Assembly: GCA_947479755.1 (NCBI GenBank)
Contig: CANKAM010000020.1
Location: 1 to 60,968, forward strand
Source of the DNA: Bacteroidota bacterium
GTDB lineage: Bacteria; Bacteroidota; Bacteroidia; SXHM01
Direction of reading: 5' to 3'
Length of the DNA: 60,968 nt
The notes beneath the pieces were generated by a model. It was not told the origin of the DNA. It was given only the letters and a program-made list of their open reading frames with translations, and ran no database searches. Positions within the stretch are counted from its first letter, which is position 1; each line of letters starts with the position of its first letter. The position numbers and the translations under genes were made by a program. This document shows, piece by piece, positions 5,644 to 33,700 of the stretch.

Positions 5644-6891
5644 TTACATCACCTTACCTGCAATAATTACTGTTTCTATTGGGATATTTGCGAATGAATA
5701 AGGCAAAAACGAATACGAAGAAATCTCTTTCGTAATAAATATATTCGCTTGTTTGCCTACAGCAATACTGCCATGCGTTTGACTTAACCCCATTGCGTAA
5801 GCAGAATTAATTGTTGCTGCATTAATCGCTTCTTCGGGTGTCATTTTATACTGAATGCAAGCGAGAGAAATCATGAAATTCATGTTGCCGCTTGGTGAGC
5901 TGCCGGGGTTGTAATCACTGGCAATCGCAACAGGCAATCCTGCATCCATCATTTTGCGTGCAGGAGGGAAAGGTTCCTGCAAAAAGAATTGTGCGCCCGG
6001 CAAAATAGTCGGCATGGTTTGAGCATTCATTAATGCAGCTATATCTTCATCATTTACATATTCCAAATGGTCAACACTGATAGCACCAACTTCTACTCCT
6101 GCTTTTACACCGCCCGAATTACTTAATTGTTCTGCATGAACTTTAGGAACTAATCCATATCCTTTAGCAGCGGTGAGAATTTTGATTGTTTCTTCTGCTG
6201 TGAAGTATCCGTTCTCGCAAAAGATATCGCAGTAGTCTGCTAGTTTTTCTGTGGCAATCTGCGGCAGCATTTCATTTATGATTAAAGAAATGTAATCTTC
6301 TTTTCTGTCTTTGTATTCAGCGGGAACTGCATGTGCGCCAAGGAACGTAGCTTTGATTGTAAGCGGTGAAAGCGTTTTCAGTTTCTTTATCACGCGCAGC
6401 ATTTTCAGTTCTGCTTCAAGCGAAAGTCCGTAGCCGCTTTTGATTTCAATGGCGCCTGTTCCCTGCATCATTACTTCGTTCAATCGTTTCAAAGCGCTTT
6501 GCACCAATTCATCTTCACTTGCTTCGCGTAGTTTCTTTGCAGAGTTCAGGATTCCGCCACCGCGTTGTGCAATCTGCTGATAAGTAAGGCCGTTTATCCT
6601 GTCCACAAACTCTTGCTCACGGCTGGCAGCAAAAACAATGTGTGTATGCGAATCACACCAACAGGGAAACACGAGCTTATCTGTTGCATCAATTATCTGT
6701 AAACCACTCCAATCGGTAATTCCCGGAAAGTCATTCATCTTCCCGAAATCAACAATCTTGTCTTCTTCTATGGCAAGCCAGGCATCTCCGATAGAGGGAA
6801 GTATTTTCATGTCAGTGCCAGCAACTTTCAGTCGCGGATTTCCTTCCGCCTGCACTAAGTTTTTTATATTCTTGATTAGCAATTTACTCAC
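5644..6891 (-). CDS. hutI: imidazolonepropionase (HutI)
   Basis: Amidohydrolase that opens the ring of imidazolone-5-propanoate to give formimidoglutamate, the substrate of the pathway that contains FtcD. It has 415 residues, typical for the family. The metal-binding DSHTHIVFAASREQEF segment near residue 78, the KSGYGL substrate loop, the KVHAEQLSNSGG segment and the ASDYNPGSSP aspartate motif are all present. The start is a GTG at 6891, the only codon that keeps the normal N-terminus. An imperfect -7 box (CATCTTTG) sits just upstream. Spacing to ftcD is 1.3 kb with an unrelated gene on the other strand between them. Confidence 0.95.
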   Translation of the reverse strand: MSKLLIKNIKNLVQAEGNPRLKVAGTDMKILPSIGDAWLAIEEDKIVDFGKMNDFPGITDWSGLQIIDATDKLVFPCWCDSHTHIVFAASREQEFVDRINGLTYQQIAQRGGGILNSAKKLREASEDELVQSALKRLNEVMMQGTGAIEIKSGYGLSLEAELKMLRVIKKLKTLSPLTIKATFLGAHAVPAEYKDRKEDYISLIINEMLPQIATEKLADYCDIFCENGYFTAEETIKILTAAKGYGLVPKVHAEQLSNSGGVKAGVEVGAISVDHLEYVNDEDIAALMNAQTMPTILPGAQFFLQEPFPPARKMMDAGLPVAIASDYNPGSSPSGNMNFMISLACIQYKMTPEEAINAATINSAYAMGLSQTHGSIAVGKQANIFITKEISSYSFLPYSFANIPIETVIIAGKVM

Positions 6892-7361: not shown

Positions 7362-8189
7362 TCAGTTTAGCGGAATAACAACATTAAGCCCTGTAGTATT
7401 GCGAGATACTACGGGGCTTATTTGTACCCCCCAGTTGTTATGGCTGTAAATCAATTTTCCGATGCCATAACCAACAACGGCTCCTATAAAGACATCAGAT
7501 GCCCAATGCCTGTTGTCGTGAATGCGCGAGAGTGATGCAATACCTGCAATAGTGTAAACCAAGGGCGGAATTAGTCTCTTGTCCTTGTATTCACAGGCAA
7601 TAATAGTTGCTATGGAAAAGAAGATAGAAGTATGTCCCGAGAAAAATGATTCGTTCTTCCAGTTTCCGCCAAAGCTGTCGAAGACATAAGGGTTGTCTGT
7701 TGCATCAGGCCTGTGCCGCTGAAAAGCAAACTTCATCACTTGTGTGAATGCACCCGTAAGCACAAATGCTTTTACACCAAGTAATGCAACACGTTTGCTT
7801 CTGTCGTTATTCCAGATTAATCCATGCAGATAAAAACCTGCCATGAGAGGAAGAGAGTACGTTCCTTTACCCCAGGGTTCAAGACCGTAACGAGAAATAT
7901 CATTGGTTAACGGTGTTCTTAGTTTTTGAGAAAGTCTTTTTATCTCATCATCATAGACAAATAAAACGCCTGTTGTTGCACCTATAGCAGCAAGGCTTAT
8001 CCAGTGCGAGGCTTTCCATTTTGCGGGAGCGATAAGTATATCGCGTGTGTCTTTAAAGTAAGAACCGAAATACTGTTTATCAAAACCTGAGCGTGTTAGC
8101 GGACGGAGTTGTTTAGTTTGTGTTGTGTCTTGTGCAAAAGAGGATGTAGAGATTATGGTAAGGAATAAAATCTTTACACAGAGTTGCAC
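7362..8189 (-). CDS. PAP2-family membrane-associated phosphatase
   Basis: Acid phosphatase of the PAP2 superfamily, which removes phosphate from lipid substrates such as undecaprenyl pyrophosphate or phosphatidic acid at the periplasmic face. All three motifs are visible: K-X6-RP (KFAFQRHRP), SGH in FFSGHTSIF, and SR-X5-H-X3-D (SRIHDNRHWASD). The frame stays open to an ATG at 8252 inside mazG. I chose the GTG at 8189 because it gives a plain signal peptide (QLCVKILFLTIISTSSFAQ follows) and avoids the mazG overlap. The bases around this start belong to a dispersed repeat (8175-8213). It is the last gene of the amine oxidase-TPR-mazG run. Confidence 0.8.
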   Translation of the reverse strand: MQLCVKILFLTIISTSSFAQDTTQTKQLRPLTRSGFDKQYFGSYFKDTRDILIAPAKWKASHWISLAAIGATTGVLFVYDDEIKRLSQKLRTPLTNDISRYGLEPWGKGTYSLPLMAGFYLHGLIWNNDRSKRVALLGVKAFVLTGAFTQVMKFAFQRHRPDATDNPYVFDSFGGNWKNESFFSGHTSIFFSIATIIACEYKDKRLIPPLVYTIAGIASLSRIHDNRHWASDVFIGAVVGYGIGKLIYSHNNWGVQISPVVSRNTTGLNVVIPLN

Positions 8190-9020: not shown

Positions 9021-9632
9021 TTAATTACAAAATCTCGCTAAGTCTTTTCCTGCTTCTTTATTGCCCAGTTCAAAGGCTTTCTTCCAGTCTTCGCAGGCTT
9101 TTGTTTTGTCTTTCATTTTGTAGTGAATTATTCCGCTGTTGTTATAAGCTTCACTGAAAGTTGGTTCAATGGCTACTGATTTCGCAAACATTTCAAGGGC
9201 TAAGGTGTAATCTTTTTTCTCCATGTAAATATTGCCGATGTTATAATAACACTTGAAGCAACCGGGATTGAAGATGATTTCTTTGGTAAAATCTTTATGC
9301 GCTCCTTCCGGGTCGCCTGATTTGTTTTTGATGTTTCCGCGCAGGTAATAGGCTCCGGGAAAATCTCTTTTCATATTGAGTGCTTTGTCAATATCAGTGA
9401 GCGCTTGCGGATATTGTTTCATACTGAAGTAAGCCATAGCCCGGTTGCTGTAATACTCATGGTTAGCGCTGTCGAGTGAAATAGCTTTGGTGAAGCAGTT
9501 GATAGCGGCCACATAATTCAGTGAATCAAAGTGCGTGATACCAAGTCTGTTCAGATTGTCAGCTGTTTTGTTTTGTGCAAAAAGATTTGCAGAAAGCAAT
9601 AATATAATAAGGGTCTGTATTGTGTTTTTCAT
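9021..9632 (-). CDS. secreted tetratricopeptide (TPR) repeat protein
   Basis: 203 residues with a signal peptide (ending LSANLFAQ). About five TPR units follow from residue 27 on, recognisable by A-x3-Y-x2-A-I-x-LD and P-x-A-Y-x-N-G patterns (for example YYNIGNIYMEKKDYTLALE). TPRs form a helical scaffold for protein contacts; no enzyme domain is attached. It lies five bases from both the upstream amine oxidase and downstream mazG, so it is co-transcribed with them. The partner protein cannot be read from the sequence. Confidence 0.8.
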   Translation of the reverse strand: MKNTIQTLIILLLSANLFAQNKTADNLNRLGITHFDSLNYVAAINCFTKAISLDSANHEYYSNRAMAYFSMKQYPQALTDIDKALNMKRDFPGAYYLRGNIKNKSGDPEGAHKDFTKEIIFNPGCFKCYYNIGNIYMEKKDYTLALEMFAKSVAIEPTFSEAYNNSGIIHYKMKDKTKACEDWKKAFELGNKEAGKDLARFCN

Positions 9633-9637
9633 GTCTT

Positions 9638-11014
9638 TTATTCTTTTGAAACTAATTCTTCAACTGCTGTATCAGCAGTTTGTATTGCGCCATGCACTGT
9701 GGCTTCGTGACCTTCTATATTGGTGGCTTCTCCCGCAAAAAATATTTTATCATCTATACTCTGTGCAAGTGTTGACCTACTGTCGCCTGTTCCAACTTTC
9801 TGATAAGAATATGCACCTTTAATAAAAGGTTCTTTGCTCCAATCCATGATGTAACTGGCAATAAGCGAGCCCGAAGCTACACCTGCTCCATACATCTGGT
9901 CGAGTTCGGCAACAACAACATCAATAGCTCCAGCACCAAGGCTGCTAAGGTATTCGGCTTTTTCACCCATCACAAAAGCTGTAAGAGTGTTGTTTTCTGC
10001 ACTTCTTCCAAGCCCTGTTGACCAGAACTCAGGAACATACCCGCTGCCATAAACCGATCCGAGATTGGCAACCCAAAAAGTGGTACTGAATTTTAAAATA
10101 ATCTTCATGCCCGTATTCATTCCAATAGCGCTAATAGCTGATTGTTTTGATGCAGATAGCGAGGGGATAAATTCTATATCTCCACTTTGTAAGATGGCAA
10201 GCGGTACTGTTATAATTACTTTATCAGCTGCATAAGTGTTTCCGTTCTGATCGGTCAATACTACCTGACTGCCTGAGTAATCAATCTTTTTTATCTGTGT
10301 GTTCAATTGAATTTCAGGCAGTATGGCAGCAAATTTTTCTTCAAGCACTGACAGGTAGTGAGAGTTTTTTAACATAAAGTTCTGATCCCCTGCATCCCAT
10401 TTTCGACCTGAGGCAGCTACACCTGCCGCGCCAAGTCTTGTATTTGAAGTTCCGTATTCATTGCCTAGTAATGCATTGCCTATATGACTTACGCGCTGTG
10501 CTATGTTGTTATCAGAAAGATATTGATCCATAGTTTTATCTGCTCCCAAATAATTTTCGATGTTATCTATTAAATCATAAAGGGCATTCAGGTCAGCGTC
10601 ATTGGCAAGTTGTGTTTCGCTTTTAAGGAGGTTATCTATAAAATAAAAACTCTCGTCATCAGCATTTACAAATTCTTTATTAAGCGATGTAATAATATCG
10701 TACCATAACGATTTTTCGCCATGAACTTCTTCAGCGCCCAGCTCAATAGTAAAATCACTGAAACCTTGTAAAGGCCTTATTCTTCCTCCATAAACGGGAG
10801 CTGCTTCAAGAACCGTAACATCAACATCATAATCGTTCAAAAGGTAAGCCGCATACATTCCTGCAGCGCCTGCTCCGATAACTATTGCTTTGCCTGAAAA
10901 TTCAATTTCATCTTTTTTGCAAGAAGCGAGCAATGATGGCATGAGCATTCCTGCAGGTAAAGCAAGAGCAAGATTTTTAAGAAGTTGTCTGCGGTGAATT
11001 GGTAAAGGTTTCAT
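9638..11014 (-). CDS. FAD-dependent amine oxidase-like protein, exported
   Basis: Flavin monoamine oxidase family member of about 458 residues. The N-terminus has a twin-arginine-like signal (HRRQLLKNLALALPAG) with a lipobox (LLASC), so the folded flavoprotein is probably exported by Tat and lipid-anchored. The FAD-binding Rossmann motif VIGAGAAGMYAAYLL follows at once, and the C-terminus has the FAD-contacting FFAGEATNIEGHEATVHGA segment. The substrate is unknown. The ATG at 11014 is preferred to one at 11044 because a TATGTTTG -7 box lies at 11032-11039. First gene of the run with the TPR protein, mazG and PAP2. Confidence 0.82.
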   Translation of the reverse strand: MKPLPIHRRQLLKNLALALPAGMLMPSLLASCKKDEIEFSGKAIVIGAGAAGMYAAYLLNDYDVDVTVLEAAPVYGGRIRPLQGFSDFTIELGAEEVHGEKSLWYDIITSLNKEFVNADDESFYFIDNLLKSETQLANDADLNALYDLIDNIENYLGADKTMDQYLSDNNIAQRVSHIGNALLGNEYGTSNTRLGAAGVAASGRKWDAGDQNFMLKNSHYLSVLEEKFAAILPEIQLNTQIKKIDYSGSQVVLTDQNGNTYAADKVIITVPLAILQSGDIEFIPSLSASKQSAISAIGMNTGMKIILKFSTTFWVANLGSVYGSGYVPEFWSTGLGRSAENNTLTAFVMGEKAEYLSSLGAGAIDVVVAELDQMYGAGVASGSLIASYIMDWSKEPFIKGAYSYQKVGTGDSRSTLAQSIDDKIFFAGEATNIEGHEATVHGAIQTADTAVEELVSKE

Positions 11015-11031
11015 AGAGTAATTCTTAATCG

Positions 11032-11039
11032 CAAACATA
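11032..11039 (-). promoter_or_regulatory. -7 box of the amine oxidase operon
   Basis: TATGTTTG on the minus strand matches TAnnTTTG and would start transcription between the two possible ATGs, which supports the one at 11014. No convincing -33 box at the right distance. Confidence 0.4.
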
Positions 11040-11127
11040 CTCAAAGAAATTAAAAGCCGTTTGTTTAAAATTCATCGGTGGCACGAAAAATGCCTCATAC
11101 TATTCACGTTACTTTTAGCGTTATTAA

Positions 11128-11165
11128 ATAAAAGCCTCACCCTGCCCTCTCCAAAGGAGAGGGTT
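11128..11165. repeat. dispersed hairpin repeat with AAA loop, left copy
   Basis: Pyrimidine-rich lead, then CCCTCTCC-AAA-GGAGAGGG at 11145-11163, a perfect 8-bp stem with a three-base loop. It sits just before the ATG of the GH3 fusion. An inverted relative of the same design lies at 11213-11242. Confidence 0.6.
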
Positions 11166-11175
11166 CATACATACG

Positions 11176-14166
11176 ATGAAAAATTCTTTCTTAAAAATTA
11201 AGTTGTTTCTTTCTCCCCCCCTTTGGGGGAGCCGGAGGGGGCTGCTTTTAATTTTATTAGTGTTCCCGTTGCTGGGAAGTTTTGCTCCAAACAAACTACC
11301 CGAGCAAAAGCTGCCTCCTTTCCTTAACGGCAACAATGATGCATGGGTTGATTCTGTTTTCAATTCGCTTACACCTGATGAAAGATTGGGACAACTCTTT
11401 ATGGTTGCGGCATACTCTAATCGTGACAGCAATCATCTGAAAGAACTCGATTCCCTCGTTTGCAATTACAATATTGGCGGGCTTATCTTTTTTCAGGGCG
11501 GACCGGTGAGGCAGGCAAACATGACCAACTTGCTTCAGTCGTATGCTAAAACACCGCTGCTGATTGCAATGGATTGTGAGTGGGGCTTAGCGATGCGTCT
11601 TGACAGTACCTTTAAATTTCCGCGGCAGATGACGTTGGGTGCTGCCGGAAATGATACACTGGTTTATAAGATGGGCGCTGAAATAGCCCGTCATTTCAAG
11701 CGTTTGGGTATGCACGTAAATTTTGCGCCCAGTGTGGATGTGAATAACAATCCGCTTAATCCTGTTATCGGCAGCCGCTCTTTTGGTGAGAATAAACAAC
11801 GTGTTGCAGAGATGGGCGTGCAATACATGAACGGTATGCAGGACAATGGAATTCTTGCCTGCGCCAAACATTTTCCCGGGCATGGTGATACGGATTCTGA
11901 TTCACATAAAACGCTGCCCATTATCAATCAATCAGCAGAGCGCATGGATACGCTGGAGTTGTACCCGTTTCGCGAGATGATCAGAAACGGTGTGGGAAGC
12001 ATGATGGTGGCACACCTGTATATTCCGGCTTACGACACTACCACCAATCAGGCTTCCACACTCTCATCTAAAGTGGTGAAAGATCTTTTGCAGGATACAC
12101 TTGGTTTTCAGGGATTGATATTTACCGATGCACTGAATATGCAAGGCGTGGCGAAGTTCTATGAACCCGGTGATGTTTCACTACGTGCTTTACTTGCAGG
12201 TAATGATGTGTTGTTGTTTGCAGAGAATGTTCCCGTGGCAATTGAAAAAATAAAACAGGCAATCGTTGAAGGAAAAATAACACAGGAAGAGATTGACCGC
12301 AGGTGCAAAAAAGTATTGCGCACCAAAGCATGGGCAGGCTTGGATAACTACAAACCGATTGCACTTAACAACCTGTATGAAGATTTGAATAACGTACAAT
12401 CAGAGGTGATAAACCGCAAAGCATTTCCGGCTGCACTTACGTTGCTCAGCAATAAAAACAATGTGCTTCCGTTAAAAAATCTTGACAAGCTGAACATCGC
12501 GTGTGTGAGCATTGGTGATACTTCGCAGAACATATTTTTCAGTCGCGCTAATGATTATGCTTCCGTAAAGTGTTTCAACATAAAGCCTGATGCCGACAGC
12601 ACTTTATACATCAAGACTAAAGCTTTGTTGTCGGGTTTTAATGTGGTGCTGGTGAATGTCCAGAACACCAACTCACAGCCGACAAAGAACTTCGGTGTGT
12701 CGCCTCATGCGGTGAAGATGATTAACGCTTTGAATGATGGCAGTCGCAAAGTAGTGCTTAGTGTTTTTGGCAATGCATACACGCTGAACCGCTTGCCGGG
12801 TGCTGAGCTGACTGATGCGCTCATTATGGCCTATGAAGAAAATGCCTATACACTTGACTACACTGCTCAACTGATTTTCGGAGGCATTGGTGCAAAAGGA
12901 AAACTACCCGTTAATGTTAACACCGTGTTCACGATGAACAATGGACTGACCACTCAATCTATCCGAATGTGTTATACCATTCCCGAAATGATGGGCTACA
13001 ACACAAACGATTTTCACAAGGTTGATTCAATTGCTTTAGATGGTATTTCAAAACACGCTTTCCCGGGTTGCCAGATTTTAGTAGCGCAAAAGGGCAAGGT
13101 TATTTACAGAAAGAATTTTGGCGGACATACCTATGAGAGTAACACGCTTCCGGTAAGCAACAACAGTATTTACGACCTTGCTTCAGTAACCAAGATTGCG
13201 GCTACGCTGCCCGTTATCATGCAACTGACGGACAAGAAAGAGATTGATATAAGCAGCAAACTATCTGCGTATTTGCCCGAGCTGTTGCCTACCAACAAAA
13301 AAGATATTGTGCTGCGCGACATGCTTGCCCACCAGAGCGGATTGAAAGCATGGATACCTTTTTATCAGAACACATTGAAGGAAGGAAAACTGGATGATTT
13401 TATTTACAGCACCACGCAGAACGAAACGTTTGCTTACCGCGTTGCCGAGAAACTCTATATCCGTAAACTTTATCCCGAGATGATCTACACGGCTATCAAT
13501 GAATCGGAACTGGGCAAGAAGGAATATGTTTACAGTGACCTTGGCTATTATTACCTGAAGAAAGTAGCTGAAAAATATACTTCACAACCTTTAGATGTTT
13601 ATGTAAAAAACAACTTCTACCGAAAGCTGGGCATGAGCACCACCACGTATCATCCGCGTGATTACTTTGCGCTGGACAGATTAGTGCCAACGGAATACGA
13701 CATGGCTTTCCGCAAGCAATTGGTGCAGGGCGATGTTCACGACCCGGGTGCTGCAATGATGGGTGGAGTTGGCGGCCATGCCGGACTGTTTTCCAATGCC
13801 AACGACCTTGCAAAACTTATGCAGATGTATCTACAAATCGGAGAATACGGAGGCGAACGTTACATCAGCGAAGCAACCTTGAAAGAATTTACCAAATGTC
13901 AGTTTTGTGCCAACGGCAACAGACGCGGTTTGGGTTTTGATAAGCCCGAACAGAACGGTAAATCAGGACCAACCTGTGATTGCGTTTCGTACATGAGCTT
14001 TGGTCATACGGGCTTTACGGGTACCTATGCCTGGAGCGACCCCGACAAGGAGGTTGTTTATATCTTCCTCTCCAACCGCGTGTATCCCGATGCAGAGAAC
14101 AAGAAACTCATTGATATGAATATCCGCACCAAGATACAGGAGGCGGTGTATGAGGTGGTGAGGTAA
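11176..14166 (+). CDS. GH3 NagZ-like beta-N-acetylhexosaminidase fused to a class C beta-lactamase-like serine hydrolase
   Basis: 996 residues. After a signal peptide, residues about 50-400 form a glycoside hydrolase family 3 domain with the NagZ signature KHFPGHGDTDSDSHK and the nucleophile region FTDALNMQG, followed by a GH3 C-terminal domain (about 420-590). Residues about 610-990 form a serine hydrolase domain with SVTK (S-x-x-K), YSDLG in place of Y-x-N and HTG in GHTGFTGT. The family is common in Bacteroidota and is thought to act on peptidoglycan: the first domain would cleave GlcNAc and the second would act on the peptide or an ester. The signal peptide contains an in-frame SPPLWGSRRGLL segment made by a dispersed repeat. 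It has no operon partner. Confidence 0.88.
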   Translation: MKNSFLKIKLFLSPPLWGSRRGLLLILLVFPLLGSFAPNKLPEQKLPPFLNGNNDAWVDSVFNSLTPDERLGQLFMVAAYSNRDSNHLKELDSLVCNYNIGGLIFFQGGPVRQANMTNLLQSYAKTPLLIAMDCEWGLAMRLDSTFKFPRQMTLGAAGNDTLVYKMGAEIARHFKRLGMHVNFAPSVDVNNNPLNPVIGSRSFGENKQRVAEMGVQYMNGMQDNGILACAKHFPGHGDTDSDSHKTLPIINQSAERMDTLELYPFREMIRNGVGSMMVAHLYIPAYDTTTNQASTLSSKVVKDLLQDTLGFQGLIFTDALNMQGVAKFYEPGDVSLRALLAGNDVLLFAENVPVAIEKIKQAIVEGKITQEEIDRRCKKVLRTKAWAGLDNYKPIALNNLYEDLNNVQSEVINRKAFPAALTLLSNKNNVLPLKNLDKLNIACVSIGDTSQNIFFSRANDYASVKCFNIKPDADSTLYIKTKALLSGFNVVLVNVQNTNSQPTKNFGVSPHAVKMINALNDGSRKVVLSVFGNAYTLNRLPGAELTDALIMAYEENAYTLDYTAQLIFGGIGAKGKLPVNVNTVFTMNNGLTTQSIRMCYTIPEMMGYNTNDFHKVDSIALDGISKHAFPGCQILVAQKGKVIYRKNFGGHTYESNTLPVSNNSIYDLASVTKIAATLPVIMQLTDKKEIDISSKLSAYLPELLPTNKKDIVLRDMLAHQSGLKAWIPFYQNTLKEGKLDDFIYSTTQNETFAYRVAEKLYIRKLYPEMIYTAINESELGKKEYVYSDLGYYYLKKVAEKYTSQPLDVYVKNNFYRKLGMSTTTYHPRDYFALDRLVPTEYDMAFRKQLVQGDVHDPGAAMMGGVGGHAGLFSNANDLAKLMQMYLQIGEYGGERYISEATLKEFTKCQFCANGNRRGLGFDKPEQNGKSGPTCDCVSYMSFGHTGFTGTYAWSDPDKEVVYIFLSNRVYPDAENKKLIDMNIRTKIQEAVYEVVR
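11213..11242. repeat. dispersed hairpin repeat inside the signal-peptide coding region
   Basis: CTCCCCC...GGGGGAG around a TTT centre (11213-11231), followed by a purine-rich tail. It is the inverted counterpart of the element at 11128-11165. It is read in frame as SPPLWGSRRGLL between two normal signal-peptide segments. Confidence 0.6.
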
Positions 14167-14200
14167 TTACCGCTCTTATACCCTTGTCAAATCTACAATC

Positions 14201-14610
14201 AGTTGCCCGATGATGGGATTAACGCTGGGGAATCCCCAGCGAGTTGGGGAGCGTTCCGATTAACGTTGGGGAAACCCCAACTATTTCCTGAACGTTCCGA
14301 TTTCCGTTGGCAAATCCCCAAGCCAAATCTCCTTGTTCCGATTATCATTGGCAAAACCCCAACCATTTGCCGAACGATGGGATTAACGTTGGGGAAACCC
14401 CAACGAGTTGGGGAACGTTCTGATTAACGTTGGGGAAACCCCAACCATTTTCGGAACGATGGGATTTGTGTTGGGGAAAATCCCAATGACTTGAGGAACG
14501 TTCGGATTTACGTTGGGGAAACCCCAACCATTTGTCGAACGATGGGATTGATGTTGGGGAAATCCCAAGCTTAATCTGAATAAGGAGATTGACGCTGGGG
14601 AATTTTCATT
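14201..14610. repeat. tandem array of about ten 41-bp hairpin units
   Basis: Units begin at 14216, 14257, 14298, 14339, 14380, 14421, 14462, 14504, 14545 and 14585 (last one partial). The tail of an earlier unit lies at 14201-14215. Each core is GTTGGGG-AAA-CCCCAAC or a decayed form. Odd units end in a tail like GAGTTGGGGAACGTTC, even units in one like CATTTGCCGAACGATG, giving an 82-bp higher-order period. In odd units CCCCAAC can pair with the GTTGGGG on either side. The 41-bp period is not a multiple of three, so frames through it are not genes. It fills the gap between two convergent genes, before a terminator. Confidence 0.85.
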
Positions 14611-14670
14611 GCTACTACCAACCTAAGATTTCTCTTTTGGGCAAAGGCAAAACGCTCATCTTAAAAAAAA

Positions 14671-14698
14671 GAAAGTCCCGCCAAAAGGCGGGACTTTC
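14671..14698. terminator. bidirectional terminator between convergent genes
   Basis: GAAAGTCCCGCC, loop AAAA, GGCGGGACTTTC: a perfect 12-bp stem with A-rich and T-rich flanks. It serves the GH3 fusion on the plus strand and the T9SS protein on the minus strand. Confidence 0.85.
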
Positions 14699-14722
14699 TT
14701 ACTATAGACAGTGGACTTTCTT

Positions 14723-16561
14723 CTATTTAACCATCAACTTCTGTGCCTTAACATCAGCACCAATCTGTGCGTTGATGAAATAAACACCTGAAGCAAAGTT
14801 CTCAACGTTGATATCCAATGAGCTTCTTCCCGCAGGTACTTTATTGCTGTAAGAAGAAATCATCTGACCTCTAACATCGTAAACGTTAACCACTACGTTT
14901 CCTGCTGTGTTTACAGTAAAAGAAACTTTAGTGCTGGTTCCTGTTGGGTTAGGATAAACCGAAAACTCATCAATGATGTTGTGTTGTTCTTCAACTGCAA
15001 CATCAAGCGTAGCAGGAACACACAGGTAAACGATTTCGTTCACATCAAATGCATCTTCATCGCCTCGGGCAGCAAGTCCCGGTTCAAAGTCGCGCTGATA
15101 AACCATAGGAATACAAGTGCCGTCATTGGTTGGCGCAAGAGATGCAAATACGTTCTCAGCAAAATCTTCGAAAGGAGTTACATCATTAGGCAATGACCAT
15201 GTGTCGCCACCATCAGTAGATTTAATAGCATAGATGTGACGGTAGTTCTGGCTTCCGTTGTTCAGGTTATCATGCAAACCTGCGTAGGTAACATAAATAT
15301 CACCGTTATCACTTAATGAAACGCTTGGCATACTGGTAACAGAAACATAATACAAGCCTGCTTCAATAAAGTCAAGAGTTCCGCTGTTATCAGCATCAAC
15401 CGTGAATGCAATTGTGTCGGCAGGTGTTCCTGCGCCCATGCTTTCGTTCCAGTAGCAAAGACCATCACTGAAAGGGAAGTAGGAAGTCTGGTCATCGCCC
15501 AATACATCATTCAATACACGCATTGCTCCCCAGAAAATATGAGCCTCACCGTTATCATCCAGCATAATGGCATAAGAACCGTCACTGGTTACAGGAGTAT
15601 CCAATACCTCAGTAGTAGCTTCGTCAAACATGTCATAAGGAAAATCAAAAACAGTTGTTTTGGTCCAGGTGTCACCGTTGTCAGTAGATTTCATAAGTAT
15701 AACATCTTCAAAGTTGTCACCGATAACAAAAGCAATGGTATCGCCTTGCGATTCAGCCCATGAATAGTTATCACCTGTAAAGCTTGGGTAAAAATTTGAA
15801 CTCAGTTCGGCAGGAACCTCATTAACAATATCCCAAGTAGCTCCACCATCAGTTGAGCGGCTGTAGCAAGGCGCTCCGTCTTGTCCGTTGTAAAGCGTTC
15901 CACCGTTGGCAACAGGATAAGTAACAGAAAGCACGTGCAATGAATTGCCATCAGCACCACCATTGGTCATACGTGGCCACCAGTTACCTGTAGGAATTGG
16001 GCTTGGCAGTTGAGTAATATCTTCGGTCCATGCACCTGTTCCTATTGAAGAACGGTAGGTCAGTTGCAAATCTTCATCAGCTGTGTTATGTGCAATGGTA
16101 TATTCTTTTCCGTTGGCAAGTGTGGTAATAGAAGGCCAGCCTGTTCTCTTAGACTCTAAGCGTCCCGTTGGCTGTGCTCCCCAGCCTCCGCCATTGTTAT
16201 AGTTATATCCGGTACCGCGGTCGGCAGCAGCAAGGTCATTGCTCTCGCTGTAAGTCCAAACAGCAGAAATACCACCGTTAGGGCTTTTGTAAATACGATT
16301 TTGCACCGATGCGTTTGTTTGCAAATCGAAAGTGGTTTGACCGATAATGGCCTCGTTAGGGTCAAGACCCAACGTGCTTGGAGCAGTGTAGGCATTAGGC
16401 TGGCGAAGCAGTTTTCCGATTACTTCAGTTCCGTCATAGTTGCGTGTTGGAACCGAAACAGCTTTGTTTTTCAAATGCTGCGGAATAACAGAAGGTGCGT
16501 TTTGTGCATCAGCTGCTAAAACACCACCCATCAGCATTGAAAAGAGTACAAGTTTTTTCAT
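14723..16561 (-). CDS. secreted sialidase-fold (BNR-like) protein with T9SS type A sorting domain
   Basis: 612 residues. A signal peptide (MKKLVLFSMLMGGVLAADAQ) is followed by a beta-propeller-like region with several Asp-box-like turns (STDGGATWD near 240, STDNGDTWTK near 290, STDGGDTWSLP near 455). The last 80 residues are a type IX sorting domain (FSVYPNPTGTSTKVSF ... GVYFINAQIG ... QKLMVK). It is therefore exported across the outer membrane and attached or released. The catalytic Arg triad of true sialidases could not be found by eye, so it may bind rather than cleave glycans. It has its own promoter at 16606-16635 and shares the terminator with the GH3 fusion. Confidence 0.8.
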   Translation of the reverse strand: MKKLVLFSMLMGGVLAADAQNAPSVIPQHLKNKAVSVPTRNYDGTEVIGKLLRQPNAYTAPSTLGLDPNEAIIGQTTFDLQTNASVQNRIYKSPNGGISAVWTYSESNDLAAADRGTGYNYNNGGGWGAQPTGRLESKRTGWPSITTLANGKEYTIAHNTADEDLQLTYRSSIGTGAWTEDITQLPSPIPTGNWWPRMTNGGADGNSLHVLSVTYPVANGGTLYNGQDGAPCYSRSTDGGATWDIVNEVPAELSSNFYPSFTGDNYSWAESQGDTIAFVIGDNFEDVILMKSTDNGDTWTKTTVFDFPYDMFDEATTEVLDTPVTSDGSYAIMLDDNGEAHIFWGAMRVLNDVLGDDQTSYFPFSDGLCYWNESMGAGTPADTIAFTVDADNSGTLDFIEAGLYYVSVTSMPSVSLSDNGDIYVTYAGLHDNLNNGSQNYRHIYAIKSTDGGDTWSLPNDVTPFEDFAENVFASLAPTNDGTCIPMVYQRDFEPGLAARGDEDAFDVNEIVYLCVPATLDVAVEEQHNIIDEFSVYPNPTGTSTKVSFTVNTAGNVVVNVYDVRGQMISSYSNKVPAGRSSLDINVENFASGVYFINAQIGADVKAQKLMVK

Positions 16562-16605
16562 TTGATTTTCAGTATAAATTAGGATTAAGTATTTGTTAAG
16601 AATTG

Positions 16606-16635
16606 CAAAAATATGTTAAAATCTAAATTATGCAA
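16606..16635 (-). promoter_or_regulatory. promoter of the T9SS BNR-like gene
   Basis: Minus-strand TTG at 16633-16635, 19-base spacer, TATTTTTG at 16606-16613. The ATG is 45 bases downstream. Confidence 0.6.
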
Positions 16636-16645
16636 CACTATTTTT

Positions 16646-17980
16646 TTAAATGACTCCACTTGCGAGAATATAGGCTGCAATTGTGGTTGCGGAGTAAATC
16701 AAGAGCCAGCCCACAGAAGTATAGTGTTGAATGGAAATATTGAGCTTGAATTTAAGGTAAAAGATAAGCAATATCTTTTCCAGTGTAAAGGCAATAAACA
16801 CGCCCCAGGCAACTCCTTCAACACCTGCAAATTGTATCAGTATGATGCTGCAAACTATGTTTGTCAGCGCTTCGGCAAATGAAATCAACATCACCGCATT
16901 TGTTTTCTTCAAGCCAATTAAAATGGTTTGCGGAAATACCATTCTACTTATCACTAATAAAAGATAGATATTAAAGATACCTGCACTCGCTGCAAACGAA
17001 GCATTAAACAAAATAGGGTAAAGCGTTTTGCTCAGCAGCATCAGAACAATGGTAACCGGAAAAAGAAAGTGCATCAACCGCAAAGCAGATTGTTTTATTT
17101 CGGCTAATGATTGTTTCAACTGTTGTGCATCCGAAAACTTAGGCAACATGGCATTGCTGAACGAGTTGGCAAGCAGCATGGCAAGCGGCAACTCTTTAGC
17201 ACCATTGCGGAATATTGCAAACGTTGTATCATCAAAATAATGCTGCACAATAAAACCGTTGATGTATTCAATGGAACCGCTGAGCACAGCGCTTACAATT
17301 AGCGGAGAGCCGATTATCAATAAGGACTTAATGTGTTCTTGATTAACTTTCAGCTCAGCATTTTTGAAAAGAAGAACCAGCAACCAAACAAAACGGAAAG
17401 CTGCTGAAGCTACAACACCGCAGATTGAAAGATGAAAAACATCAAATTCATGACTGGCTCCCTGCCCGAAATAAACAGGTCCTGCTACCAGCAGCAACTG
17501 AACGGAAAAAGAAACAACACCGTAAATGAGAATACTCTTCGGTTTGTTAAACAATAAATAAATGTATTCAACCAGAAAGGCAGGATTAGCCAGCAAGAGA
17601 TAAAATGAAAACAGGTTGACAAGCGTGCTTATTGCTTTGTTATCCGATTCAATAAAACTGCCCGCAGCCACTCTGAATAAAAAAAATGAGAGAACGCTGC
17701 AAAGCATAACAACCACAAAAACACTGAAGAGTTTTTTAGAGCGTTGTCCCTCTTCAATTTTTCCATGCGATGCAAGCAAAGCCTGAATAAACCCCGATAC
17801 CCAGAAGAAGCTGAGAACACTTGCAAAGAAGAGCAGCTTTTCGTACAAGCCAATCAGTTCGGTTGACAAACCAGCCTGCGCAAACAACATACCCGTAACA
17901 AACAACACAGCATACCGCATAACCTGAAAGGTTTGCAGGGCGCGGATGTTGGTAAGATGCTTGTTAATAAAATCGAACAT
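16646..17980 (-). CDS. polysaccharide flippase-like membrane protein (MOP superfamily)
   Basis: 444 residues with about twelve hydrophobic segments spread over the whole length and short charged loops, the pattern of Wzx/MurJ-type lipid-linked sugar flippases. Basic residues mark the cytoplasmic loops. No short signature motif defines the family, so the assignment rests on topology, length and on the membrane glycosyltransferase gene 24 bases upstream on the same strand. The pair probably moves or assembles a surface glycan. The N-terminus (MFDFINKHLTNIRALQTFQVMRY, given here only as position 1-23) has the amphipathic start common in this family. Confidence 0.7.
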   Translation of the reverse strand: MFDFINKHLTNIRALQTFQVMRYAVLFVTGMLFAQAGLSTELIGLYEKLLFFASVLSFFWVSGFIQALLASHGKIEEGQRSKKLFSVFVVVMLCSVLSFFLFRVAAGSFIESDNKAISTLVNLFSFYLLLANPAFLVEYIYLLFNKPKSILIYGVVSFSVQLLLVAGPVYFGQGASHEFDVFHLSICGVVASAAFRFVWLLVLLFKNAELKVNQEHIKSLLIIGSPLIVSAVLSGSIEYINGFIVQHYFDDTTFAIFRNGAKELPLAMLLANSFSNAMLPKFSDAQQLKQSLAEIKQSALRLMHFLFPVTIVLMLLSKTLYPILFNASFAASAGIFNIYLLLVISRMVFPQTILIGLKKTNAVMLISFAEALTNIVCSIILIQFAGVEGVAWGVFIAFTLEKILLIFYLKFKLNISIQHYTSVGWLLIYSATTIAAYILASGVI

Positions 17981-19313: not shown

Positions 19314-21461
19314 TCAATCCAGTTTCTTCGTCTTCAACCTAATCGAATTCCCAATCACAATAACATCCGAAAAAGCCATCGACAACGCACCCACCATAGG
19401 ATTAAGAAATCCGAATGCAGCTATAGGAATAGCTATTACATTGTAAAAGAAAGCCCAGAAGAGATTTTGCTTAATCGTCTTCAAGGTATGCTGACTAATC
19501 AATAATGCCTCATGCAATTGTTTCATTCCCGAACTGCCCAACAGAATAATACCTGCACTTTGCACTGCCACCTGGGTAGCGTTGCTCAGCGAAATGCCAA
19601 CCTGTGCTTTTGCCAATGCAGGCGCATCGTTAATGCCATCTCCCACCATGGCAATCTTTGAAGTCTGTGATAGTTGGTCAACAATCTCTAACTTCTGTGC
19701 AGGGGTTTGTTCGCTATAAACTTTCTTTATTCCAAGTTTTGCTGCCAGTTCATCACAACGTTCTTTTTTATCACCGCTCAGCATAATGGTTTCTATGCCT
19801 GCTCCGTTCAGCAAGGCAATTGCCTCTTTCGCATAAGGCTGAATTTCATCTTCCAAATCCACTGCTCCTGCAAGCTTTCCGTTAATCAGCAGATAAATGT
19901 TGTGTGTCTTATTCTCCGCTTGATTTTCAGCAATACGGAAAGAACCTGCCTTAATTACATTTCCTTCTTTATCGGTTGCAGAAATCCCTAATCCTTTTTC
20001 TTCTTTCACATTACTCAGAATCAAATCAGCAGCTTTGCTCTTCAGGTTTTCAACCAATGATTTTGCAATCGGATGCGATGAGTTTTTCTCCAAACTATAC
20101 AGCAGGTCAATGATTTTCTGCTCTCCCGTTCCATTGTAAGAAACTATCTTTTTGATGCTGAATTTCCCTGTTGTAAGCGTTCCTGTTTTATCAAACACAA
20201 CCTTTTTCACTTGCGCAAATTCTTCTAATGTTTGACCACCTTTTATTAGAATACCTCTTTTAGCGGCACGTCCCAAGCCCGCCATCACAGCCGTTGGCGT
20301 TGCTAATCCCATTGCACACGGACACGAAATTACCAGCACCGCAATGCTATGCATCAATGAACTTTGCATAGAAAGCCCAGCTGCAAAATAGGAGATAACA
20401 AAAGTCAGCACTGCAATTCCTACCACTGCCGGAACAAAAATTGCACTAACCTTATCACCTAGTTTTTGAATAGACGGTTTTGTGTTCTGAGCATTCTTCA
20501 CCAACTCAATAATATGAGCAAGCACCGTTTCTTTTCCCACTTTCTTTGCCTTTACGCGCAGATTGCCGCTCACTAAAATTGTTCCGCCTGTTACTGCATC
20601 ACCAATAGCCTTCTCTGCCGGAATACTTTCTCCCGTCAGCATTGCTTCATCTACAGAAGCATTACCGCTTACTACTTCACCATCCACAGGAATCCGGTCG
20701 CCTGTATTTACCACCACCACATCATACTTGATGATTTGTTCAATATCCGTTTCCTCTATTTCTTCTTTTCCATCTTTTATAACAACCAGTTTCGCTTTGC
20801 CTTCCTGCAAAGCACTAAGCTCTTTTATAGCAGTGGTGGTTTGCTTTACCGAACGGTGTTCTATAACATTACCTAACAAGACAAGCGTTATAATCGTTGC
20901 AGCAGTTTCATAAAACAGAAAATTACTCACATCAGGCTGTCCGTAATACATAATTGTTCCTGCCAGACTGTAAACAAATGCCGAACCCGCGCCAATCGTA
21001 ATCAGCACATCCATATTAGGCACTCCCGACCTGAGTGAACCCAACGCACTCTTTCCGAAATGATACATACCAACAACAACTACGGGAATACTCAACCCCA
21101 ACTGCACCAATGGATGATGCAGAAAATGAAAGGGTAAAAACATGTGCAGAAAAAGCGGAACAGTAAATATCAGCGAGAAATAAAATAGCTTCTCAACCTT
21201 TGTCCACTCTCTTTTTCCGGTTTCTTCCTTTTTAGAATCAACTACTTTATAGCCTAAGCCTTCAATGTTCCCGACAACAGCTTTAAGTTCAATAGATTTA
21301 TCTTCTATAAAAACAGCTTCACCCGTTGCAAAATTTACGTTTACATCCTTCAACCCAAGTTTGGTAAGGCTCTTCGTAATACCCAACGCACAGCTTGAGC
21401 AGTCCATGCCCTCTACATTCAACGTTATTTTTGCTGTGCTTCCTTCCATAATATTCTTCAC
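19314..21461 (-). CDS. copA: copper-translocating P1B-type ATPase
   Basis: Pumps Cu(I) out of the cytoplasm using ATP. 715 residues in the order: one heavy-metal-associated domain with GMDCSSC at 18-24, transmembrane helices, actuator domain with TGES at 277-280, the CPC metal site at 380-382 within ISCPCAMGLATPTA, the phosphorylated DKTGTLT at 424-430, and the GDGINDAPALA hinge near 620. One HMA domain and a CPC site fit Cu(I) export. There is no adjacent regulator or chaperone. An alternative ATG lies four codons in. The gene ends beside the palindrome at 19232-19313. Confidence 0.93.
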   Translation of the reverse strand: MKNIMEGSTAKITLNVEGMDCSSCALGITKSLTKLGLKDVNVNFATGEAVFIEDKSIELKAVVGNIEGLGYKVVDSKKEETGKREWTKVEKLFYFSLIFTVPLFLHMFLPFHFLHHPLVQLGLSIPVVVVGMYHFGKSALGSLRSGVPNMDVLITIGAGSAFVYSLAGTIMYYGQPDVSNFLFYETAATIITLVLLGNVIEHRSVKQTTTAIKELSALQEGKAKLVVIKDGKEEIEETDIEQIIKYDVVVVNTGDRIPVDGEVVSGNASVDEAMLTGESIPAEKAIGDAVTGGTILVSGNLRVKAKKVGKETVLAHIIELVKNAQNTKPSIQKLGDKVSAIFVPAVVGIAVLTFVISYFAAGLSMQSSLMHSIAVLVISCPCAMGLATPTAVMAGLGRAAKRGILIKGGQTLEEFAQVKKVVFDKTGTLTTGKFSIKKIVSYNGTGEQKIIDLLYSLEKNSSHPIAKSLVENLKSKAADLILSNVKEEKGLGISATDKEGNVIKAGSFRIAENQAENKTHNIYLLINGKLAGAVDLEDEIQPYAKEAIALLNGAGIETIMLSGDKKERCDELAAKLGIKKVYSEQTPAQKLEIVDQLSQTSKIAMVGDGINDAPALAKAQVGISLSNATQVAVQSAGIILLGSSGMKQLHEALLISQHTLKTIKQNLFWAFFYNVIAIPIAAFGFLNPMVGALSMAFSDVIVIGNSIRLKTKKLD

Positions 21462-30763: not shown

Positions 30764-33700
30764 ATGACAAAAACAAACTCTACCCACAAAAAATCAAACA
30801 TTCTTCAATTAGCAGTGGCAGCCGTCTTGATGACTTTAGGTCTTCAAAATGCTGTTGCCCAGCAATCCAGCGAAATAAGCGCTGATGTAAAGAGTTTGCT
30901 TGAGTTTTATGAAAAACAGATTTACTTTACTGAAAACAAAGGTCAGTGGTCTTCTGATATTCATTACCGCGCTGAATTTTCTTTTGATGATATTAACAAT
31001 ACATTAATTAATACTCCAGTTTCAGGAAATGTATTAACTAACGATAGCGATCCTGACGGTGATAGCTTTACCGTTACAACAAATACTAATCCTTCAAACG
31101 GATCAGTTGTTATTAACCCTGACGGAACTTACACTTATACACCAAACACAGGTTACACAGGTGAAGATACATTCACTTATACTATCTGTGATAATGGTGT
31201 TCCCGGTCCGTTATGTGACGTTGCTACTGTAACTATCCATGTTATTCCTGTAACAACTGAGAATAATCCTCCTATTGCAAACCCTGACAATGCGGTTACT
31301 TTAATAAACGTACCTGTTGGCGGAAATGTATTGGTAAATGATGGTGATCCTGACGGTGATAACATCATCTTGAATACTACTCCTATTTCAAACCCAACCA
31401 ACGGTTCAGTGGTATTAAATCCTGATGGTTCATATATCTACACACCAAACAACAACTTTGTTGGTGTCGATGTATTTACTTATGAAATCTGCGATGATGG
31501 CGTGCCTTCATTGTGCGACCAGACTACTGTTACGATTACTGTTCTTCACAACCCTAATGGTCCTGATAACGACCCTCCTTTTGCTGCTGACGATGCATAT
31601 TTAACGCCTGTTAATACTCCTGTTGGTGGTGATATGTTGGATAATGATTTTGACCCTAACGGTGATCCAATTGCTGTAAACACAACTCCTGTCTCTAACC
31701 CTGCAAACGGTAGTGTTGTGATAAACAGTGACGGAACATTTACTTACACACCTAACCCGGGCTACATTGGTCCTGACCAGTTTGTGTATGAGATTTGCGA
31801 TAACGGTGGTCAAAGCGGACAAGTGCTTTGCGCACAGGGAACTGTTTACATTACTGTTTATCCTGTTATTGATATAACAGTTGTTGCTTCAGATGCTTCT
31901 TGCTTCGGATACAGCGATGGTTCTGTTAACCTTACTGTAATCGGTGGTGTTGCACCATTCACATACGTATGGTCTAACGGTGCTACTACCGAAGATTTAT
32001 CAGGTGTTCCAGCAGGAACTTATTCTGTAACAGTTACTGATGCTTTTGGATTAATACTTTCAGGAAGCGCAACTGTGGGACAACCTGCTCAGGTTATTGT
32101 TTCAGTTGATGCAAACGGGCCAACAGAATTCTGTGCCGGTGGCAGCGTAACATTAACTGCTAACTCAACTTCACAGGGAACTTATCTGTGGTCTAACGGA
32201 GCTACAACGCAATCGATTGTTGTTTCAACATCGGGTGATTACAGCGTGGTATTAACTGACGGAACCGGTTGTTTCGGAACTTCAGCACCTATATCTGTAA
32301 CTGTATTTGAAAATCCTGTTCCTGTTATCTCAGCTGACGGACCAACAGAATTCTGCGATGGCGGAAGTGTTGTTCTCACAGCAAGTGAAGCAGTTATGTA
32401 CGTATGGTCTCCGGGTGGTGAAACTACACAATCAATTTCAGTATCTGCTTCAGGTAGCTACAGTGTTTGGGTAATGGATGCCAACGGTTGCGAAGGAACT
32501 TCGGCTCCTGTTGTTGTAACTGTTTATCAAAACCCTGTTCCTGTTATTTCTGCTGACGGACCAACAACATTCTGCTCAGGCGAAAGCGTAACACTCACTT
32601 CATCTGAAGCTGAAGGTTATCTGTGGTCTCCTAATGGTGAAACTACTCAATCAATTACTGTTTCAACTTCAGGTGTATACACTGTTACTGTATTTGATGA
32701 ATTCGGTTGCCGCGGAACTTCTGCTCCTGCGGAGGTAGTGGTAAACAGCAATCCTGTTCCTCAGGTATCTGCTGACGGGCCAACTACTTTCTGCGAAGGC
32801 GGAAGTGTTACATTAACTTCTTCTGAGGCTGCCGGTAACGTTTGGTCTCCAAACGGGGAAACAACACAATCAATAGTTGTTTCTGTTGCAGGCAGTTATT
32901 TTGTAACTGTAACTGATGAAAACGGTTGTGTTGGTGTTTCAAATCCTCTTGAAATATTTGTAAATCCAAATCCGGTTCCGGTTGTTACTGCTGATGGACC
33001 ATTAACTTTCTGCGCAGGCGAAACGGTAGTATTAACGTCAAGCGAAGCAGCAACGTATGTATGGTCTCCGGGCGGTGAGTTGACACAGTCAATCACTGTT
33101 TCTGCAAGCGGTGACTACAGTGTATGGGTAATGGATGCAAAGGGCTGCGAAGGAACTTCGGCTCCTGTATCGGTTGTTGTAAATAATAATCCAGTTCCTG
33201 TTGTAAGTGCTAACGGACCAACTGAATTCTGTATGGGTGGTAGCGTAGTATTAACTTCTACAGATGCTGCTTCTTATGTATGGTCGCCAAACGGTGAAAC
33301 TACTCAAAGCATTACTGTTGCTGAACAGGGAACATATTTTGTAACTGTAACGGATGCTAACGGATGCGTTGGGATTTCAAATCCTGTTGCAGTAACTGTT
33401 AATCCTAATCCTGTTCCTGAAATTACTGCTGACGGACCATTGACTTTCTGCGAAGGCGGTCAGGTTGCTCTTATTGCAAGCGATGCTGCAAGCTATGTAT
33501 GGTCACCAAATGGTGAAACCACACAGACAATAGTTGTATCTGCTTCAGGTGCTTATTCAGTGGCTGTTATTGATGCCAATGGTTGTTCCGGTGTTTCTGC
33601 CGCAGTAGATGTGGTAGTTAATCCTAATCCTGTTCCTGTTATTTCTGCAAGCGGACCATTATCGTTCTGCACAGGTGGAAGCGTAACACTTACTTCATCT

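Follow-up and report, generated by a model that had tools for sequence, protein, structure and literature searches.

The window analysed here, a stretch of 60,968 nucleotides from a Bacteroidota bacterium of the SXHM01 lineage (assembly GCA_947479755.1, contig CANKAM010000020.1), contains a tandem array of ten hairpin units located between two convergent genes, i.e. a gene encoding a GH3 plus beta-lactamase-fold fusion and a gene encoding a BNR-like protein with a Por secretion tail (Table 1). Inspection of the sequence together with a TRF analysis, which retrieved periods of 41 and 82 bp (scores 273 and 381), confirmed the array that had been noticed in the sequence-only reading: units are 41 bp long, with a single unit of 42 bp and a truncated last one, and show an 82-bp higher-order alternation. 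The 17-base core GTTGGGGAAACCCCAAC is exact four times in the window and elsewhere in this genome occurs only on contig 26, with one mismatch allowed, whereas the reversed, uncomplemented pattern used as control had no match. The two types of tails are also real (A: GAGTTGGGGAACGTTC; B: CATTTGCCGAACGATG), although their alternation is imperfect since units 3, 4 and 9 depart from it. As RNA the array folds strongly on either strand, with z-scores of -7.0 on the plus strand and -6.9 on the minus strand. The strong terminator, which had been assigned to the plus strand, was reported by the consensus scan on the minus strand (14669-14700), i.e. for the T9SS-type gene, although by eye it looks bidirectional.

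Table 1. Positions in the window of the array units, the flanking genes and other features.
Position	Strand	Feature	Observations
11176..14166	+	GH3 plus beta-lactamase-fold fusion gene	Not a member of the array-linked family
14200..14216	+	Decayed B-type tail of a lost unit 0	CAGTTGCCCGATGATGG against consensus CATTTGCCGAACGATGG
14217..14257	+	Unit 1, A tail	Stem CGCTGGGG-AAT-CCCCAGCG; GCTGGGG/CCCCAGC where other units have GTTGGGG/CCCCAAC, a paired change
14258..14298	+	Unit 2	Exact core
14299..14339	+	Unit 3	Shortened stem (GGCAAATCCCC); aberrant tail CCAAATCTCCTTGTTCC, conserved at the same place in the other full-length copies
14340..14380	+	Unit 4, B tail	GGCAAAACCCC core
14381..14421	+	Unit 5, A tail	Exact core
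14422..14462	+	Unit 6, B tail	Exact core
14463..14504	+	Unit 7	42 bp; the same extra base is present in the copy of another species at another locus (contig 26 of G006)
14505..14545	+	Unit 8, B tail	Exact core
14546..14586	+	Unit 9	Tail CTTAATCTGAATAAGGA, conserved in position in other copies
14587..14640	+	Truncated unit 10 and trailing sequence	GATTGACGCTGGGGAA, ending near 14610; about 45 bp of trailing sequence shared with the contig-26 copy
14665..14704		Terminator hairpin shared by the two convergent genes	In relative G003 a terminator follows the GH3 stop directly, with no array
14723..16561	-	BNR-like protein gene with Por secretion tail	Not a member of the array-linked family
32296..32874		219-bp tandem repeats	Probably coding for repeated domains of a surface protein

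Dispersed copies of the array

The absence of a second array in related genomes, together with a lack of conservation of unit phase or pairing, had been named in advance as the outcome that would reduce the array to an ordinary decaying minisatellite, and our searches of this genome and its relatives clearly contradicted it. A second full array is present on contig 26 of the same genome (hereafter G000), by the signal-recognition-particle gene ffh, and copies of about 400 bp were found in sister species (relatives are designated G001 to G006) at the GH3 locus (G001), the ffh locus (G001 and G005) and an RNase D locus (G006). Unit by unit these copies align in the same order, including the odd units 3, 4 and 9, and the G005 copy lacks exactly two units, i.e. 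one 82-bp step. At the GH3 locus the G003 genome has the empty site, whereas G004 carries an inserted gene with a secretion tail and an ACTAGT-rich array of about 21 bp in place of the 41-bp array; at the ffh locus no array is present in G002, G003 and G004. More distant arrays with core GTTGGCATTTYGCCAAY and the same 41-bp period sit at one orthologous locus in four species. The genomes compared include metagenome assemblies, which limits the claims on synteny. The 100% identity of the window array in G000 and G001 is uninformative with regard to constraint, because it falls in a block of about 2.5 kb that is 100% identical within an 85-90% background; such blocks (window positions 9200-9900, 11000-11400 and 14100-16800) point to recent exchange between species or mixing in the assemblies.

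Among about 85,000 prokaryote species the two-core pattern was found only in this genus, apart from the cyanobacterium Desmonostoc, where the GGGGAAACCCC repeats include two TTGGGGAAACCCCAA hairpins at 41-bp spacing (positions 7580-7670 of the stretch retrieved) in a different flanking unit (GCAGTCGCTCCACTTGGGG) without a long array, a case which we treated as convergence. Searches of virus, phage and plasmid collections yielded neither the array nor the family protein described below. In addition, inverted TGTCATNCCGAATG...GGATCTC dispersed repeats were observed beside the contig-26 array, between the array and its adjacent gene (about 6540-6800 of one of the two retrieved stretches that show them).

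A class of arrays with fixed period

A TRF survey of 1.25 of the 3.9 Mb of the G000 genome identified 43 arrays, 34 of which, mostly intergenic, have periods of 20-22, 41-43, 62-64 or 82-84 bp (i.e. 21, 41 or 42 bp and multiples), about 2.7 per 100 kb; most of the others are coding or one-offs. A 400-kb sample of G003 contributed 12 more, 3.0 per 100 kb, a few of which (collagen-like) are coding. In contrast, none was found in 642 kb of 13 other Bacteroidia genomes, where about 17 were expected at the density of G000. Unit sequences are mostly unrelated between arrays, and orthologous intergenic sites can hold different arrays in different species. The 41- and 42-bp arrays are more palindromic than shuffled units (Fisher p 1e-5 and 1e-4), whereas the 21-bp arrays are not. 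A hidden 21-bp sub-period was sought in the 42-bp arrays and occurs only in some of them, the palindromic ones lacking it. It must be considered that periods were called by TRF and that some of the 21-bp labels were set from its 42- or 63-bp rows. Arrays lie between convergent, divergent or co-directional genes.

Association with an unannotated gene family

The gene adjacent to the contig-26 array (19554-20540 of that contig, downstream of the array) has 19 relatives in this genome and its product, of 329 aa, matches no Pfam, NCBIfam or PADLOC model. In the sampled contigs 13 out of 14 genes of this family have an array beside them. Of 40 distinct family genes, 2 lie too near a contig end to be judged; among the remaining 38, 32 have an array upstream, at 31-557 bp, 2 have it downstream and 4 have none, whereas in general 28 of 876 genes have an array within 600 bp upstream. 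A profile search of 395 genomes of the phylum retrieved a single homologue outside the order, in another class (genome G234), which has twelve 21-bp units 129 bp upstream; this case provides an independent test, since it was not part of the data from which the rule was drawn. On the other hand, about half of the arrays have no family gene next to them, and neither a family gene nor a pseudogene was found near the window array.

The period of the array follows the type of protein. Of the 34 genes with arrays, the 14 with 41-bp arrays fall on one side of a branch with full support (100/100) and the 5 with 42-bp arrays on the other, with 0 of 500 label shuffles doing as well, whereas all 15 genes with 21-bp arrays match only profile positions from 121 on, so they have another N-terminal region and share only the C-terminal domain. 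The sequence of the array does not follow the protein. Within the 41-bp clade, genes 97% identical (G000 contig 18 and G006 contig 175) have stems CCGT-AACGGTT-ACGG and CCGT-GGCGGCC-ACGG, and the same core switch occurs in a second array family (G000 contig 58 against G001 contig 10). In the first family AT/GC changes were paired at pairs +-2 and +-3 in 31 of 33 and 33 of 33 units (18 v 15 split), a result reached by 0 of 2000 shuffles; pairs +-2 and +-3 were complementary in 33 of 33 and 32 of 33 units, although both columns are split about half and half. However, near-identical copies inflate covariation counts, and the switch may represent only two or three events spread by homogenisation. 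Covariation within the window's own family is modest: the window type differs from its GGCA relatives mainly by one covarying pair (12/18), with GGCA/CCCC intermediates that break it, so that the strong case comes from the related families.

An AlphaFold2 model of the family protein (pLDDT 84) predicts two long antiparallel helices of about 60 residues and a C-terminal beta barrel. Foldseek retrieved cupin and jelly-roll domains for the latter and nothing for the helices, and gave no DNA-binding relative, while a sequence search of the PDB yielded only weak hits to Ypd1 helices, with E of 0.045 and above. No nuclease-like domain match was obtained, and the biochemical function of the protein is unknown.

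Other 21- or 42-bp arrays lie beside different small, probably helical proteins, some with Fn3-like C-termini (in G000, contig 7 34289-34777, contig 8 625-1350 and contig 6 20309-21016; in the sampled stretch of G003 contig 1, 56898-57605, 16307-17041 and 389628-390344), which may or may not be the same kind of system and are possibly further branches of it. Two homologous proteins in two species (G000 contig 7 48793-49906 and G003 contig 1 sample 315097-316093) have each an AT-rich palindromic 42-bp array just upstream, being a second gene family that shows the same rule. A search for a second protein family (MTGN..FPTP plus Fn3) found homologues in four families of the phylum outside its own, the flanks of which were not examined. 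Finally, small XRE-like helix-turn-helix genes adjoin 21-bp arrays (G000 contig 3 70891-71286 and contig 6 19340-19657; G003 contig 1 sample 91565-91933), and in two of these cases the array lies between this gene and a family gene.

Discussion

Our analysis shows that the array of the window is an array-only (orphan) copy of a two-part genetic unit of this lineage, consisting of an intergenic tandem array of strictly fixed period placed just upstream of a gene of a paralogous, unannotated protein family, with a predicted N-terminal long helical hairpin and a C-terminal cupin/jelly-roll-like domain. Its nearest gene-linked copy in this genome is that of contig 26, homology to which ends about 45 bp after the last unit, before the gene. 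The period goes with the protein type (41, 42 or 21 bp) while the sequence of the unit is free to change, except that the 41/42-bp units stay palindromic through paired changes. Beyond this point our interpretation is inferential, resting on adjacency, period matching and symmetry: the family protein, or a complex containing it, would assemble along the array DNA, its helical domain setting the spacing (2 or 4 helical turns, so that all sites would face the same side) and each palindrome offering a two-fold symmetric site read by its symmetry or cruciform shape rather than by exact sequence. Next to the gene the array would act as operator or assembly platform, whereas array-only copies such as that of the window would have spread by copying or recombination, and may be extra binding platforms or leftovers; which of the two is open, as is how they were copied. 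We hold this explanation with moderate confidence. No binding of the protein to the repeats was shown, and the palindromes change between orthologues whose proteins are 97-98% identical, which is hard for a sequence-reading protein.

The interpretation put forward in the sequence-only reading is partly supported by these findings. Hairpin units, the 41/82-bp order, conserved phase and the existence of a second array were all corroborated. The proposal that CCCCAAC could pair with GTTGGGG on either side, enabling a switch along the array, is not supported, because the second GTTGGGG of type-A tails is not kept: homologous A tails read GAGTTTTGG, GACTTTAGG, GAGTTAGGG or GAGTTTGGG, and the GGCA-core arrays lack any second copy. 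Nor is the proposal that the array would be carried as a 3' tail of the GH3 fusion transcript, which fails as a general rule given that gene contexts vary in orientation and most gene-linked arrays are upstream of a gene. What could not be seen from the window alone is that the array belongs to a gene-linked class of arrays.

Several alternatives were weighed against this view. It is possible, though less likely, that the arrays are selfish interspersed repeats (REP/BIME- or MITE-like), mobile or spread by recombination without host function, the downstream gene being either the mobility factor of the element or a passenger. The copies with the same unit order at unlinked loci, their presence or absence between species, the empty site, the excess of orphan over gene-linked copies in the GGGG type and the occurrence of Y1 transposase-like genes in all seven genomes are in favour of this possibility. 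However, no unit was found near any of the 15 Y1_Tnp loci of the genus, the family protein has no nuclease-like domain match, and a period following protein clade across very different array sequences is not expected of a passenger. Terminal inverted repeats and target-site duplication were not recognised at the window copy; the G003 empty site shows that the array is extra sequence, but the flanks are too diverged to define its ends, which leaves this criterion without an answer in either direction.

A role at the RNA level, with the transcribed array folding into a chain of hairpins that stabilises, terminates or regulates the neighbouring transcript, would be in agreement with the strong folding scores and with the location of gene-linked arrays where a 5' leader could be, some within 31-60 bp of the start codon, but we regard it as unlikely. 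In the alpha and beta families the central pair departs as T.G and C.A about equally often (5 v 4, 6 v 7), so that the G-U wobble of neither strand is favoured, which fits DNA better than RNA; furthermore, the 21-bp arrays have no hairpins at all, gene contexts vary in orientation, and no Rfam family fits, with only sub-threshold chance matches, all around the terminator. Still less likely are ordinary minisatellites, in which slippage and gene conversion would make and homogenise the arrays, template switching would perfect the palindromes and the period would have no meaning. The loss of one 82-bp step in G005, the decayed end units and the cores homogeneous within an array but different between arrays could be accounted for in this way, but slippage does not explain why nearly all non-coding arrays are 21/41/42 bp, why the other Bacteroidia sampled have none or why the period follows the adjacent protein. 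Protein-coding repeats of 7 or 14 residues, or remains of them, were considered because 21 and 42 are multiples of three and some arrays are open in one frame; this reading was rejected as very improbable, given that 41-bp arrays shift frame at every unit, mismatches show no common codon-phase pattern and many arrays have stops in most frames.

Comparison with described systems revealed partial similarities. REP/BIME elements with RAYT (TnpA-REP) genes (PMC3733652) share with these arrays the short palindromic intergenic units dispersed in the genome, the clusters with alternating subtypes and the orphan copies away from a gene that is flanked by the repeats. They differ in that here a head-to-tail 41-bp period is fixed over about ten units, many unrelated unit sequences exist per genome and the linked gene does not encode a Y1/HUH protein; by eye, neither a GTAG nor a CGTC tetranucleotide was seen at the stem foot of the unit consensus GATTAAC-GTTGGGGAAACCCCAAC. 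The BrickBuilt MITE with minisatellite of Porphyromonas gingivalis (PMC4596501), in the same phylum, also comprises intergenic tandem arrays of about two helical turns (23 bp), with varying unit number and dispersed copies, but it is one sequence family with leader, tail and terminal inverted repeats, and we found no linked gene family described for it, whereas here many sequence families with periods of 21/41/42 bp are linked to a paralogous gene family. CRISPR arrays likewise combine regularly spaced, partly palindromic repeats with a linked protein family, but in the window array all 41 positions repeat without unique spacers, and the linked protein had no hit to PADLOC models. In iteron or centromere-like arrays (plasmid origins, parS/parC) direct repeats about two helical turns apart lie next to the gene of the protein that binds them; phased repeats next to the gene of a putative cognate protein were indeed observed here, but as dozens of chromosomal arrays with different sequences, and the protein is not a known Rep or Par family. 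Each of these systems fails or lacks at least one defining feature, and our search of the open-access literature, which did not extend to subscription papers, found no description of the arrays.

It is tempting to speculate, although only tentatively, on a previously undescribed array-protein system of Bacteroidota, in which a fast-multiplying protein family with a helical 'ruler' domain would assemble on its own upstream DNA array, the period being set by the protein while the repeat sequence drifts and only the two-fold symmetry is kept, and detached arrays such as that of the window would serve as extra sites in the chromosome. Tandem repeats in bacteria are usually treated as slippage products. 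Here the repeat period is locked to the type of an adjacent protein while the repeat sequence is free, which points to a DNA-protein assembly with a built-in ruler, found in dozens of copies per genome with no annotation in Pfam, NCBIfam or PADLOC. These findings make a concrete pair, array plus gene, out of two kinds of dark matter, hypothetical proteins and intergenic repeats, and the homologue in another class shows that it is not limited to one genus.
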